Shown here: positions 2,995 through 29,413 of the stretch, in pieces
Layout: each line of letters begins with the position of its first letter
Position numbering within the stretch: position 1 is the stretch's first letter
IMG/VR virus record: IMGVR_UViG_3300045135_000404
Location: 1 to 30,281 of that record
Length of the DNA stretch: 30,281 nt
Reading direction: 5' to 3' (one strand)
Source of the DNA: a virus
Translations under genes and position numbers: made by a program
Notes under the pieces: model-generated
Database searches by the model: none
What the model was told of the DNA's origin: nothing
What the model saw: only the letters and a program-made list of their open reading frames with translations

Positions 2995-3828
2995 ATGGCC
3001 GCTACGACCACCACCACCCTTGACGACCTGTTTGTCAATATCGTTGCTCAAGCCCGTTTCACGGCTGAAGAGCAATCCCTGATGCGTAACTTGGTGACGA
3101 TGTATAACATCGAAGCCCAAGCCGGTACGACCATTCAGGTTCCCAAGTATCCTGCCATCAGTGCTGCCGCCCTGACCGAAGGCACGGATATGTCGAGCAC
3201 TACGGTTTCGACCTCTAGCGTTAGTATTGCTGTTGGCGAAGTTGGCGCACAAGTGCTGCTGACCGACATGGCTGCTATGGGCGCTGGCGACCCTGCTAGT
3301 GAGTTGGGCACTGTGTTGGGTAACGCTATTGCTACCAAGATGGACAAGGACTTGATCGCCTTGTTTGATGGCTTTGGCACCTCGCTGGGCGCTACGACCG
3401 TTGAAATGACCGCTGCTTACTTGTTCCAAGCCGCCGCTACGCTGCGCGCCAACAAGGCTCCTGGTCGTTTGGTTGCCGTGCTGCATCCGTACCAAACCTA
3501 CGCGCTGAAGGCAAACCTGACCAACACGTTCGCTAACCCGAACGGCGGCGATTTGCAAAATGAAGCAATGCGTAACGGCTATGTCGGCACTATCGCTGGC
3601 ATTGATGTGTTTGAGTCGGCAAACATCACGGTTGATGGTTTTGGCGATGCCAAGGGCGCTGTGTTTGCGCCTGAAGCCTTGGCCTTGGCCATGAAGCGTG
3701 ACTTCCGCATCGAGCCTCAGCGTGACGCATCGAACCGCGCTTGGGAGTTGAACGCCACCGCTATCTACGGCGTTGGCGAGTTGGACGACTCCTACGGCGT
3801 TGAGATGTACTTCGACGCTGGCCTGTAA
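2995..3828 (+). CDS. Major capsid protein
   Basis: 277 residues, forming the icosahedral shell. The sequence shows the N-terminal region AATTTTTLDDLFVNIVAQARFTA, a beta-rich stretch with TIQVPKYP and LTEGTDMSS (residues about 45-70), and a C-terminal part with RDFRIEPQRDAS and YGVGELDDSYGVEMYFDAGL, all like HK97-fold coat proteins that follow DUF4055-type portals. The ATG at 2995 is chosen because GGAG at 2985-2988 lies seven bases upstream; an in-frame TTG at 2983 would precede that site. Codon use is more GC-rich than in the neighbours, typical of the most highly expressed virion gene. A strong intrinsic terminator follows. Confidence 0.88.
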   Translation: MAATTTTTLDDLFVNIVAQARFTAEEQSLMRNLVTMYNIEAQAGTTIQVPKYPAISAAALTEGTDMSSTTVSTSSVSIAVGEVGAQVLLTDMAAMGAGDPASELGTVLGNAIATKMDKDLIALFDGFGTSLGATTVEMTAAYLFQAAATLRANKAPGRLVAVLHPYQTYALKANLTNTFANPNGGDLQNEAMRNGYVGTIAGIDVFESANITVDGFGDAKGAVFAPEALALAMKRDFRIEPQRDASNRAWELNATAIYGVGELDDSYGVEMYFDAGL

Positions 3829-19307: not shown

Positions 19308-19429
19308 GACATGAAGAAATCATAGACGGTGACGAAAGCACCGACTCCAGCGGCTGCTGCTGCACCAAGCATTGCAAGGAATATCACAAGCTGAGCCCAG
19401 GCTCTAAACATTTCCATCATTTGCTTCAT
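19304..19429 (-). CDS. 41-residue membrane microprotein
   Basis: A short polar N-terminus (MKQMMEMFRAWAQ) is followed by one membrane helix (LVIFLAMLGAAAAAGVGAF) and a short tail VTVYDFFMS. Both ends overlap neighbours as ATGA, which is strong support for translation. No family is recognised. One of four such membrane microproteins in the L2 unit. Confidence 0.7.
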   Translation of the reverse strand: MKQMMEMFRAWAQLVIFLAMLGAAAAAGVGAFVTVYDFFMS

Positions 19430-19923
19430 CGTAATAACCCCGAAAAAATCCCTGTAGACCGCCATGTGACGTACTGACGCACATCAAGAATTGTTCTCTC
19501 GCTTACTCCATACTCTTTTGCAATTTCTTTTGTAGGCTTATCGCTTAAGCGGATTTCATCTGCCATCTGCTGATTTAACTTCACCGGAAACTGCGCCTGT
19601 CGCCGCGCTGCATCTGCTCGCGCTTTTTTGCTGATGTGTTTGTTAGCCCACGAAGCATATTTCTTGCGATCATATATTTTCATATGCTCAGGGTTAAGGC
19701 ACAGCAAAGACTCGCAAGACATGACGATTCGCCAAGTCTTTGGAATCGGCTTAACCTCATGCTCATAAACGACACGCCGCGCTGACAGCGTATGTTTGTA
19801 TCCGTTTTCGTAGTAGACGAATATCGGGTAGTTTCTTGCACCAGTGTACCCGTCCCAAATCCTGCATCCAGCATCATCATGCGTTTGCATTATCAAGCGT
19901 TTATAGGTTTCTTCACTAACCAT
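19426..19923 (-). CDS. HNH-like endonuclease with degenerate motif and C-terminal helix-turn-helix
   Basis: 165 residues. The part CRIWDGYTGARNYPIFVY and SARRVVYEHEVKPIP, then SCESLLCLNPEHMKIYDR (C70, C75, N77, H80), is the phage HNH arrangement in which the first His of the motif is here replaced (VMSCES), so activity may be lost or altered. The C-terminal part PTKEIAKEYGVSERTILDVRQ is a helix-turn-helix as in phage homing-type nucleases. The gene is coupled to neighbours on both sides. It could be a free-standing homing endonuclease or a domesticated DNA-binding protein. Confidence 0.65.
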   Translation of the reverse strand: MVSEETYKRLIMQTHDDAGCRIWDGYTGARNYPIFVYYENGYKHTLSARRVVYEHEVKPIPKTWRIVMSCESLLCLNPEHMKIYDRKKYASWANKHISKKARADAARRQAQFPVKLNQQMADEIRLSDKPTKEIAKEYGVSERTILDVRQYVTWRSTGIFSGLLR

Positions 19924-21143: not shown

Positions 21144-21176
21144 GTGTTGATGGTGCAATCATAACACCACCAACAC
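21144..21176. promoter_or_regulatory. Candidate operator: 12-bp inverted repeat over the L2 -10 element
   Basis: Arms 21144-21155 and 21165-21176 match at 11 of 12 positions and flank nine bases that include most of the -10 hexamer. Next to it lies an Arc-like repressor gene, which makes this a reasonable binding site. It could also form an RNA hairpin just upstream of the ribosome binding site. Confidence 0.45.
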
Positions 21177-21203
21177 TGGTTTTTTCTAGGGGTTTTCCCT
21201 TAG
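21158..21203 (-). promoter_or_regulatory. Promoter module of leftward unit L2
   Basis: On the minus strand, an extended -10 element TGTTATGAT (21158-21166) lies 19 bases downstream of CTAG at the edge of a GGG-N4-CCC palindrome (21186-21203). No consensus -35 is present. The same spacing is found at unit L1. The palindrome centre falls near -43, a position often used by transcription activators. Confidence 0.5.
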
Positions 21204-21320
21204 ATACATTTCAAGCATGTAGAGCACCTGGGCGTTGACAGATCGGTGTTCCATCTTTGCAAGCATCTTGATTTTCTCAAGGAGTTCACTCGGCAGCCGG
21301 ATTGAGAACGTCTTGGTCAT
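21186..21320 (-). CDS. Arc-like ribbon-helix-helix DNA-binding protein
   Basis: 44 residues, the usual size of an Arc-family repressor. The N-terminal strand FSIRLPSELLEKIKMLA begins the fold, followed by a helix with HRSVNAQVLYMLEMYL (SVNxQ is the common turn before helix B). Such proteins bind DNA operators as dimers of dimers. Start at 21320 follows AAGGAGC; a longer in-frame reading upstream overlaps another gene. It is the last gene of L1 and its stop lies within the L2 palindrome, so it could control L2. Confidence 0.82.
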   Translation of the reverse strand: MTKTFSIRLPSELLEKIKMLAKMEHRSVNAQVLYMLEMYLRENP

Positions 21321-21732: not shown

Positions 21733-21923
21733 TTTCCTTTCAGGTAATACTCAGCAAAAAATTTGCCGTTGATGCGCTTTTTGCGCGTTTCAATGTCGTG
21801 GCCCATTCCACGCAAGTCATTGATTCTTGATGCCAGTCGGAAGCAACCGTAGAACCGCAGCGCGTCTAGTGCGGTGATTGGCTCGCGTTTAAGGTGCGCT
21901 AAGATTGCTTCGTTCTGTGTCAT
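21729..21923 (-). CDS. Helix-turn-helix protein (HTH_39-like)
   Basis: 64 residues. TQNEAILAHLKREPITALDAL then RFYGCFRLASRINDLRGMGH matches the small phage helix-turn-helix pattern with ITxxxAL-YGxxRLxxRIxDLR. It could be a regulator or accessory replication factor. Start 21923 overlaps the annealing protein stop as ATGA and follows GAAGGCAAC. An upstream in-frame Met at 21971 would overlap that gene further and is not preferred. Confidence 0.72.
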   Translation of the reverse strand: MTQNEAILAHLKREPITALDALRFYGCFRLASRINDLRGMGHDIETRKKRINGKFFAEYYLKGK

Positions 21924-22519
21924 TGTGTTGCCTTCAGTATGCGTCGCGTAGGGGCGTCCAGATAGCTCCATAAGGCCCGCATCTGCGGTTCCTCAAGGTT
22001 CTCATCACGGATGCGCTGTTTGGCCGCTGCTGGCTGATGTACAACCATTGCGGTGACTTCTGCTGCAAGCTCCTCAAGGTACGGCAGTTCATCGGCAGGC
22101 ACATCATCACGAGCGCCTTGGTTCGGCACGATCTTTACTGCTGGTTTCTGTTCAGGAATATCTTCGCCAGCATAAATATAGAGACCAAGACCATGAAGCC
22201 CAAGGCATTTGGTCAAGCAGCGCATAATGGCTGTATTGACTTGAAAGGCATCAGGCTTTTCAATGGCTTTGTTTCGATAATCCATGACCGGAAGCTGACA
22301 CATCATTGGCTTGCCAAACATCGTCACGGTTACAAATACCATAGCAGTGCCGTTAATGTCCATGTAGCATTTGCCATCAAACATTTCAACTCGGTAAGAA
22401 GCTGCTGGGTCTGCTTTTAAAGCCTCTGCCCAAGCCCATGCCCATGACAGGTAGGTCAGGTTGTTTTTCTTTTCGGTGTGCTCGTTTACGTTGAGCGCCA
22501 ACAATTTTTCAATACTCAT
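21920..22519 (-). CDS. Single-strand annealing protein (Sak3 / DUF1071-like)
   Basis: 199 residues. The N-terminal TYLSWAWAWAEA motif (about 22-33), YRVEMFDGKCYMDINGTAMVFVTV, and NTAIMRCLTKCLGLHGLGLYIYAGED (about 95-119) are diagnostic of the DUF1071/Sak3 group, a branch of Rad52-like phage annealing proteins. They bind ssDNA and anneal complementary strands in recombination and replication restart. The C-terminus is a charged helical region that may bind a partner such as the neighbouring SSB-like protein. Confidence 0.8.
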   Translation of the reverse strand: MSIEKLLALNVNEHTEKKNNLTYLSWAWAWAEALKADPAASYRVEMFDGKCYMDINGTAMVFVTVTMFGKPMMCQLPVMDYRNKAIEKPDAFQVNTAIMRCLTKCLGLHGLGLYIYAGEDIPEQKPAVKIVPNQGARDDVPADELPYLEELAAEVTAMVVHQPAAAKQRIRDENLEEPQMRALWSYLDAPTRRILKATQ

Positions 22520-23170: not shown

Positions 23171-23338
23171 TTATGCGTACTTGCCAATCAAATCCATTGC
23201 GTGAGCTTCGTCAATAACTTTGAACGTCTCAACACATCCGTTGATGTGCAAGATGCTATCTTGACGATCAAAAAAGCCAATCAGCTTGCCTTCTGCGTTG
23301 CGAACTGCGCCATTGCTGTACATTGTTGCTTGGATCAT
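23171..23338 (-). CDS. 55-residue unknown protein, first gene of unit L1
   Basis: IQATMYSNGAVRNAEGKLIG then FFDRQDSILHINGCVETF and a closing helix DEAHAMDLIGKYA. No recognised family. Start 23338 follows AAGGAGAGAG on the minus strand; an in-frame Met at 23371 would lie in the promoter region. First gene behind the L1 promoter, hence likely expressed early and strongly. Confidence 0.6.
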   Translation of the reverse strand: MIQATMYSNGAVRNAEGKLIGFFDRQDSILHINGCVETFKVIDEAHAMDLIGKYA

Positions 23339-23369
23339 TTTCTCTCTCCTTTTGTGTTGCGATGTGTGC

Positions 23370-23412
23370 ATCTTAACACCAAAAACACGTCAAAATACTA
23401 GGGAAAACCCTA
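23370..23412 (-). promoter_or_regulatory. Promoter module of leftward unit L1
   Basis: On the minus strand the extended -10 element TGTTAAGAT (23370-23378) lies 19 bases downstream of CTAG at the edge of the palindrome TAGGG-AAAA-CCCTA (23399-23412). No consensus -35 is at the right distance. Sequence between -10 and ribosome binding site (GCAC, CATC, AACACAA, GGAGA) is shared with L2. Confidence 0.52.
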
Positions 23413-23441
23413 TGTTTGAAAATTTTTTTTGAGTCTATGAT
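23399..23441 (+). promoter_or_regulatory. Candidate divergent rightward promoter sharing the palindrome
   Basis: TATGAT at 23436-23441 lies 22 bases from the right side of the same palindrome, mirroring the leftward spacing. No good -35 is seen. If the usual spacing to the transcription start holds, the mRNA would begin at or very near the ATG at 23448, giving a leaderless message. Confidence 0.4.
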
Positions 23442-23447
23442 GAGAGC

Positions 23448-23606
23448 ATGAAACACTTTGAACTTTTTTTGGAAGACCTGCGGGCAAACGTGCGTCACCT
23501 GCCGATCAGCGAGGCAGAAGCCTTGAGTTGGCTCCGTGCTGTCATCTATGATGCTGTGATGTGCGGCGAGCAAATCGAGAGGGGTTTAGATGCTGAGAAT
23601 CAATGA
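23448..23606 (+). CDS. 52-residue unknown early protein
   Basis: KHFELFLEDLRANVRHLPIS then EAEALSWLRAVIYDAVMCGE is all-helical. No recognised family. Only a weak ribosome binding site is present (GAGAG), which fits a leaderless message. Overlaps the next gene by 17 bases. First rightward gene of the early region. Confidence 0.58.
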   Translation: MKHFELFLEDLRANVRHLPISEAEALSWLRAVIYDAVMCGEQIERGLDAENQ

Positions 23607-23778: not shown

Positions 23779-23779
23779 T
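23751..23779 (+). promoter_or_regulatory. Promoter of the replication operon
   Basis: TTGGTT (23751-23756) and a perfect TATAAT (23774-23779) are 17 bases apart, inside the end of the preceding gene. Transcription should start near 23786, giving a leader of about 130 bases before the initiator gene. Confidence 0.65.
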
Positions 23780-23785
23780 GAAGAC

Positions 23786-23915
23786 ACGCTGTGGAAGGCG
23801 TATAAGCTGGGTTGATTCAAGTTCCCTTTGGTGACTAGGTTCAGCCCGTTCACAACTGCAATGGTTGGCCCCAGCTCGGAATTTCCACCTGAGCCTAGTC
23901 AACTAAAGGGAATTT
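23786..23915 (+). ncRNA. Structured leader RNA upstream of replication initiator
   Basis: The only longer gap in the rightward early region. A 23-bp stem with one bulged A pairs 23822-23844 with 23889-23912. Its 3' arm contains AAAGGGA (23905-23911), the ribosome binding site of the gene starting at 23916. The 44-base apical part can form a CAAC/GTTG hairpin (23853-23856 with 23864-23867) and a CCG/CGG pairing (23846-23848 with 23877-23879). A seven-base AGCTGGG at 23805-23811 is complementary to CCCAGCT at 23870-23876 in the loop, a possible pseudoknot. No known riboswitch or RNA family is recognised. Confidence 0.6.
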
Positions 23916-24614
23916 ATGCGAATCAAAAACTGGAATAAGTTTCAGCACTTTAAAGACAGGCGACCACCTTGGATCAAGTTGTACAGAGACATACTTGATG
24001 ATGTTGACTGGCACGAACTTGATGGAGACTCGGCAAAGGCTCTTGTTGCAATCTGGTTGATAGCAAGCGAGGATGATAAGCAACAGGGAACACTTCCTGA
24101 CACGAGGACGCTGGCTTTCCGATTGAGAATCACAGAAAGCAAGGTAAATCAACTACTTACCAAACTTTCAAAGTGGCTGATACAAGATGATAACGACGTG
24201 ATATCAAGTGGATATCAAGTTGATCTACCAGAGACAGAGACAGAGACAGAGAGAAAGACAGAGACAGAGACAAAGAAGAAAGCTGTCGCTTGTCCTTCGG
24301 ACGTATCACCAGATTGTTGGGAAGCCTTCATCACTCACCGGAAAGCTGTCAAAGCATTGGTGACTGACCGAGTAGTGAACACGATACGCAACGAAGCAGA
24401 CAAGGCGGGCATACCACTTGAGGACGCCCTAGACGAAGTTGTGGCGCGTGGATGGAGGGGCTTTAAGGCCGAGTGGTACAAGCCTCAGGTTCGCACTGAG
24501 CAGCCAAGGAAGACCCAGCATCAGTTGAACGAAGAAGCTACTGCCCGCGCACTCGGTTTGATTCCCAAAAAGGAAGTTTACGATGTTGAAACCACTGCCC
24601 GATTCTTGGATTGA
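23916..24614 (+). CDS. Replication initiator (lambda O-like)
   Basis: 232 residues. The N-terminal domain (RIKNWNKFQHFKDRRPPWIK, WHELDGDSAKALVAIWLIAS, LAFRLRITESKVNQLLTKL) is the winged-helix type seen in many phage replication proteins that bind the origin. A Glu/Thr/Lys linker (about 104-123, TETETERKTETET) joins it to a C-terminal helical domain (CWEAFITHRKAVKALVTDR and RGFKAEWYKP) thought to contact the loader or helicase. The linker DNA carries repeats that may include the origin, as in lambda. Its ribosome binding site lies in the leader stem, so translation is probably controlled. Confidence 0.78.
   Translation: MRIKNWNKFQHFKDRRPPWIKLYRDILDDVDWHELDGDSAKALVAIWLIASEDDKQQGTLPDTRTLAFRLRITESKVNQLLTKLSKWLIQDDNDVISSGYQVDLPETETETERKTETETKKKAVACPSDVSPDCWEAFITHRKAVKALVTDRVVNTIRNEADKAGIPLEDALDEVVARGWRGFKAEWYKPQVRTEQPRKTQHQLNEEATARALGLIPKKEVYDVETTARFLD
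24199..24285 (+). repeat. Iteron-like and purine-rich repeats within initiator gene; candidate origin
   Basis: GATATCAAGT occurs at 24200-24209 and 24211-24220 with 11-base period. It is followed from about 24229 by a purine-rich run of GACAGA-type hexamers that encodes the initiator linker. Lambda has its origin iterons in the same place in gene O. Confidence 0.45.
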
Positions 24615-29341: not shown

Positions 29342-29383
29342 TCCAACCTGTTATCTCTCCTCCTTATCGGCCTAGCCCGATTT

Positions 29384-29413
29384 AAGCCCGTCACCGCGAA
29401 CGGGCTTTTTTTT
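29384..29413 (+). terminator. Intrinsic terminator after resolvase
   Basis: Stem AAGCCCGT (29384-29391) pairs with ACGGGCTT (29400-29407) around an eight-base loop, followed by a run of eight T to 29413. It separates the early operon from the ParB-methyltransferase gene. Confidence 0.82.

Follow-up and report, generated by a model that had tools for sequence, protein, structure and literature searches.

A palindrome placed symmetrically between divergent early phage promoters as a predicted class II activator site

The window analyzed here, a 30,281-nt stretch of viral DNA, contains a palindrome, TAGGG-AAAA-CCCTA (TAGGGAAAACCCTA, 23399-23412, centre 23405.5), located between a leftward recombination unit (L1) and a rightward replication unit (R). 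The locus raises the question of which protein reads this palindrome, and whether its binding would turn the two early promoters on or off.

Geometry of the palindrome and its promoters

The leftward promoter carries an extended -10 element on the minus strand (TGT TAAGAT, TGTTAAGAT, 23370-23378, with its hexamer TAAGAT at 23370-23375), and the rightward promoter carries the -10 hexamer TATGAT on the plus strand (23436-23441). The computed gaps from the palindrome to these hexamers (23376-23398 on the L1 side and 23413-23435 on the R side) are 23 nt each, one more than the 22 bases given in the original prediction, and the distance between the centres of the palindrome and of the hexamer is 33 bp for L1 and R alike, making the symmetry between the two promoters exact. 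The first rightward gene (52 aa, 23448-23606, plus strand) begins with an ATG at 23448, 6 nt beyond its -10 hexamer. The same arrangement of a hexamer, exactly 6 nt and an ATG was found by scan at the replication- or Cro-side promoters of relatives L025, L086 (MW202710), L121 and L151, and was read by hand in L015, L128, L155 and L232; judging from this layout, the mRNAs on that side should start at the ATG and be leaderless. With the first base of the R start codon as +1, the palindrome is centred at -42.5, and the proposed symmetric position near -42.5 of both divergent promoters is thus borne out.

A second site (TAGGGGTTTTCCCTTA, 21187-21202) precedes a further leftward unit, L2, whose extended -10 element is TGT TATGAT on the minus strand (21158-21166, hexamer 21158-21163). 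In this near copy, the CCCTA half nearer the promoter lies 23 nt from the hexamer; because the half-sites are 5 rather than 4 nt apart, the core GGGTTTTCCC sits one base farther out than at L1 and R, at 34 bp from centre to centre. The second palindrome is therefore related to the first, as had been claimed, and the claimed distance of 22 bases applies only when it is counted from a wider 18-nt outline. The site overlaps the 3′ end of a gene for an Arc-like ribbon-helix-helix protein (21186-21320, minus strand; PF03869, E 1.3e-8), and the same layout is present at position 3291 of relative L207. None of the three -10 elements has a good -35 element at 17 bp, in agreement with the original prediction. 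An extended -10 (TGT ahead of the hexamer) is found at L1 and L2, and the leader between the -10 and the ribosome binding site is similar in both, as had been noticed, and also in L207 and L196.

The L1 unit begins with a 55-aa gene with no assigned function (23177-23341, minus strand; Shine-Dalgarno sequence AAGGAGAG) and includes a Sak-type single-strand annealing protein (21923-22519, minus strand; Pfam PF06378, E 3.7e-43), which served as the anchor for finding relatives. The R unit includes an O-like replication initiator (23916-24614, plus strand; phrog_678, E 1.7e-18). Ahead of that gene lies a long, stable predicted RNA hairpin (23819-23914; -50.1 kcal/mol, z -3.0, from a fold of 23779-23918), whose arms (23819-23844 and 23889-23914) end just before the replication gene's ATG at 23916. 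In the predicted fold, the arms bury the AAAGGGAA ribosome-binding region of the replication gene, making translational control of replication possible. Elsewhere in the window, a sub-threshold match to the Rfam family Betaproteobacteria_toxic_sRNA (30.6 bits, E 0.0067, where the gathering score is 50) lies at 29354-29413, where the last rightward gene ends, and 19426-19923 encodes a free-standing homing-endonuclease-like protein with a C-terminal helix-turn-helix, with relatives in L087 and L044.

The word and its spacing in phages and host promoters

The scan for the Sak-type protein (PF06378) yielded 80 loci. A related Sak recombinase gene was the sole criterion for fetching these loci; promoters played no part in the choice, and the loci therefore provide an unbiased test of the spacing. 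Sites matching TAGGG-N4-CCCTA with at most one mismatch were collected, near-duplicates were removed, and the resulting 39 distinct arms were scored for a good -10 element at offsets of 15 to 31 nt. Fifteen arms have one at offset 23 and six at offset 24, while every other offset has at most two; in comparison, 19 permuted half-sites made from the same five letters yield 0 to 3 good -10 elements at offset 23. A simpler version of the test showed the same preference for offset 23. Across these arms, the spacing to the -10 is constant and the intervening bases are not. The pattern of palindrome and spacing is far above chance, as a matter of sequence statistics, and the proposed check, namely conservation in relatives, comes out in its favour, with 23 nt kept in many phages. 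A separate pattern scan required a -10 element in its query and was itself conditioned on the feature of interest, so it supplies examples only.

The site is present in two sequence clades of the Sak loci. In clade A (L004, L006, L007, L015, L025 and the metagenome-assembled contig L232), the word is TAGGG-AAAA-CCCCTA or a near variant; on the Sak side, CACATT lies 23 nt past the half-site, a weak -10 that counts against the activator reading, and on the other side, where fully read, TAATCT, TAGGCT or TAAGAT lies at 23-24 nt. In clade B (many of L046-L083), the word is TAGGGTTTGTCCTA or TAGGGTTTATCCTA. TAGGAT, TAGTAT or TAGCAT stands 23 nt away on the left, and GACAAT or AATAAT 23-24 nt away on the right; these phages have an additional one-sided site located 23 nt ahead of GATAAT or CATAAT. 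L207 is syntenic with the window, with a divergent site before its Sak operon, a ribbon-helix-helix gene at the operon's end, and a second site overlapping the end of that gene before the next unit. Further, the word and spacing recur in freshwater phages with a P22-type Cro and in phages with unrelated structural genes. The site is absent from Vibrio phages with Sak and from MW202691, and also from the divergent regions of Limnohabitans phage DC33 and MW202640, both reached via the replication gene.

Two other arrangements were seen among the phages. L102, L105, L169 and L194 contain many copies of TTAGGGAWWTCCCTAA-like palindromes, resembling a stoperator array, and were set aside as a different system. 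L153 (5587 and 5624) and L177 (823 and 859) each contain two TAGGG-type palindromes separated by 36-37 bp; the second one lies near the expected leftward -10, so that the pair could be a built-in feedback.

Sak relatives in bacterial assemblies led to Burkholderiales contigs. Across 349 Burkholderiales genomes, the palindrome occurs 22-24 nt before TANNAT at 16 places in 14 genomes, compared to about 8 counts for a reversed-pattern control, and 7 of the 16 places are two orthologous promoters (gene names were assigned by reading the proteins). In particular, three small genomes carry TAGGGCAAACCCTA upstream of tctB, a tripartite tricarboxylate transporter gene, 23 nt before TACAAT, and four other genomes carry TAGGG-N4-CCCTA upstream of sdhC, which is divergent from mdh, 22 nt before TATAAT. 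The tctB site matches at 9 or 10 of 10 positions in 18 of 30 loci of the genus of the three small genomes, nearly all of them at exactly 23 nt; weaker matches retain most of GGGCAAACCCTA, whereas the spacer varies, and 8 of the 30 loci have no site by a scan that also demanded a recognizable tctB start. The promoter of one phage, L219 (G012), is nearly the same as the host layout (TAGGGCAAACCCTATGTTTGATGCCCGTAAGTTAGCTTACAAT). Since the tctB and sdhC promoters carry the phage word, a host factor probably reads it, at least to judge from the shared layout. Perfect sites are seldom used in the hosts, being confined to tctB and sdhC, which weighs against this reading. In the whole genome G084 (1.71 Mb, GC 46.5%, with a perfect tctB site), weaker sites with 8 of 10 matches are no more frequent than in the permuted-palindrome control, and only the tctB site stands out; a wider regulon at acs/fumarase and sulfite oxidase sites in G084, made of such 8/10 matches, was dropped for that reason. 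We infer from the contigs and the promoter resemblance that the hosts are Burkholderiales, the window's own host likewise, and the small genomes of 46% GC suggest Polynucleobacter.

Candidate readers of the palindrome

Host genomes were surveyed for regulators of the CRP/FNR and LuxR-type families. G084 encodes only two LuxR-type helix-turn-helix proteins. The first, RR1 (773572-774216), belongs to the FixJ type of response regulators, is accompanied by a sensor kinase and adjoins aceE; its matches include FixJ (PDB 5xso, E 6.6e-47) as well as 1yio, a response regulator, and its score of 226 bits falls below the NCBIfam FixJ cut-off of 255. Orthologues of RR1 are present in 7 of the 7 host genomes with the site, with an identical recognition segment (ISIKTVEAHRANIM); overall, the orthologues of the tctB group are 94% identical and those of the sdhC group 57-61%. 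The second, RR2, resembles EvgA, is encoded next to groESL and is restricted to the tctB group; upstream of its operon, at G084 1450675, lies a 14-bp palindrome of similar geometry (TAGGAAGTTTCCTA), perhaps an autoregulatory site of RR2. Inverted half-sites resembling TAGG are frequent targets of LuxR-type regulators. RR1 is a lead from a survey of two families; it is the best candidate, although less likely than not to be the actual binder, which could come from another host regulator family.

The survey also bears on a host activator of the CRP/FNR family, which would have the 5-N4-5 geometry and a centre near -41.5/-42.5 in common with FNR-type class II sites. No CRP/FNR protein (HTH_Crp_2, PF13545) is found in G084 despite its perfect site, G198 (with an sdhC site) has a sub-threshold match alone, and TAGGG does not resemble the half-sites TTGAT and TGTGA; the family was therefore rejected, and such a binder is very improbable. 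By comparison, a phage-encoded DNA-binding protein, whether the Arc-like protein here or other small proteins elsewhere, that turns the early promoters on or off within a genetic switch of the phage is a more credible alternative, though still unlikely. It is usually a phage protein that recognizes an early phage operator, a ribbon-helix-helix gene adjoins the second site in both the window and L207, and the position of the second palindrome in L153 and L177, near the leftward promoter, recalls autoregulated operators. Against it, the Arc family (PF03869) occurs in only 2 of 27 site-bearing records, namely the window and L207, many of the 27 being incomplete, and the Arc-like protein was accordingly discarded as a general binder. 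The first leftward and rightward genes differ between phages: L004 has a 59-aa protein without assigned function and a winged-helix protein, L128 and L155 have a P22 Cro, and elsewhere there are small unknown proteins. The one operator word is thus found in phages with a P22 Cro, with a winged-helix protein or with no recognizable regulator, and the host tctB and sdhC promoters carry it at the same spacing (22 nt at sdhC). When 13 phages were compared all against all, they widely shared Sak, replication and further phage families, but among the matches listed there is no DNA-binding family that they have in common. No LuxR-type helix-turn-helix above cut-off was found in the phages, and such a phage protein was rejected as the binder; the window's weak match lies in an HNH protein. 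As many phage records are fragments, a missing regulator is no proof of absence, and the binder may be a small phage protein that is too diverged to recognize or absent from incomplete contigs. The Cro/CI family has no match among the scanned window proteins, and a search of the genome contigs with a Cro-like protein gave no matches. P22 Cro was recognized only in the L128/L155 group, where it has operator-like repeats of its own, and was not retained as the binder. In the P22-Cro phages L121, L128, L155, L200 and L219, P22-type TAAG-N4-CTTA repeats flank the TAGGG palindrome and overlap a -10 element, so that the palindrome appears separate from these repeats, which by analogy to P22 are probable Cro operators. 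These phages would then combine a lambdoid-like switch with the common putative activator site.

A repressor of host or phage origin, bound just upstream of the -35 position and shutting both early promoters, is less probable again than a phage switch protein. Repressors often act from a single palindrome placed between divergent promoters, and the extended -10 elements of L1 and L2 could work without an activator; but a repressor has no need of a constant 23 nt to the -10, which is nevertheless conserved across differing intervening DNA, most of these promoters lack a -35 element, and the site is clear of the -10 and the start, where the P22-Cro phages have their own operator-like repeats. 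Coincidence, or common ancestry without function, is the least probable of the readings: some phages are related through Sak and the palindrome is only 14 bp long, yet the deduplicated sites show a sharp peak at offset 23 against the 19 permuted controls, and the site occurs in phages with unrelated structural genes as well as in host chromosomes. The original prediction had one factor driving all three units as a class II activator, which is supported by the fixed spacing, and had named the Arc-like protein among those to examine, which fails as a general binder. Its option of a modified RNA polymerase is unneeded, as host tctB and sdhC promoters have the same site in the same place (at 22 nt for sdhC), and its option of a host factor fits best, given the host promoters and the lack of a common phage DNA-binding family.

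Predicted activation and its biological meaning

Overall, the palindrome is best explained as the site of a dimeric, probably host-encoded class II activator of the early promoters, with the FixJ/NarL regulator beside aceE as the best candidate; we give this reading, built from sequence comparison, a probability of about 0.6. Its host source is suggested by host promoters that carry the word and by phages that do not have a common recognizable regulator. Activation is favoured over repression because the spacing is constant, the -35 elements are missing, and the site does not overlap the -10 or the start; in particular, a constant 23 nt with varying intervening bases is more in keeping with a contact to RNA polymerase than with plain blocking. 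According to the proposed mechanism, a dimer on the palindrome (-49 to -36, centre -42.5) would sit immediately ahead of each promoter's -35 position and would touch region 4 of sigma or the polymerase's alpha domain on either side; since each promoter has the site at -42.5, this contact would be possible at either of them. One site would thereby help sigma-70 RNA polymerase to initiate both the leftward recombination unit (L1, with Sak) and the rightward replication unit (R), and the second site would act likewise on L2. The promoters would depend on this contact because they lack a usable -35 element, L1 and L2 having an extended -10 instead.

Known class II sites are centred at -41.5 for CRP and FNR, at -42.5 for the lux box of LuxR, and at about -42 for lambda CI at OR2. 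The palindrome resembles them in being one dimer site directly upstream of the -35 position, centred near -41.5/-42.5, with a fixed distance to the -10 and a poor or absent -35; it differs from them in that one palindrome serves two divergent promoters, is common to unrelated phages, and has the word TAGGG-N4-CCCTA. A literature search for this word gave no match. NreC of Staphylococcus carnosus, a response regulator of the NarL/FixJ family, binds a GC-rich palindrome and activates transcription (PMC5694512, PMC8139620). The likeness extends to the LuxR-type helix-turn-helix, found here in a response regulator of all seven host genomes with the site, and to the GC-rich palindrome; in contrast, NreC is a Gram-positive nitrate/oxygen regulator, whereas the present sites are found in Burkholderiales and their phages, at tctB, sdhC and early promoters. 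The NreC palindrome is reportedly TAGGG-N4-CCCTA in the original NreC paper. Among FixJ/StyR/TtrR-type regulators, RR1 is alike by its FixJ and 1yio matches, with the FixJ score under the family cut-off. CrbR, which acts through the ACTU motif at acetate genes of Gammaproteobacteria, is likewise a LuxR-type regulator with an imperfect inverted repeat at central carbon promoters; its word, GACC-N3-GGTC (PMC5715377), differs from TAGGG-N4-CCCTA, and CrbR was not kept as the reader. The early regions of P22 and lambda are similar in having divergent early promoters and a leaderless mRNA (PRM/cI) with an activator site at about -42. They differ in that no CI or Cro was recognized among the scanned window proteins, that Cro-like operators are separate in the P22-Cro phages, and that the palindrome does not appear to be the operator of an adjacent Cro or CI gene.

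A broader and more doubtful proposal, less likely than RR1 as the binder, is that unrelated freshwater Burkholderiales phages have converged on one operator and hijack a FixJ-type regulator, encoded beside aceE, that also drives tctB and succinate dehydrogenase; one symmetric dimer would then fire both early promoters and tie early transcription to the carbon and energy state of the host. If the activator reading is true, the 14-bp word and its 23-nt spacer would identify many uncultured freshwater phages and their host group, and the locus would offer a clear example from nature of two divergent promoters sharing a single symmetric class II site. Moreover, early phage genes would be under the control of a host metabolic sensor, and carbon supply would determine how infection proceeds in abundant lake bacteria.
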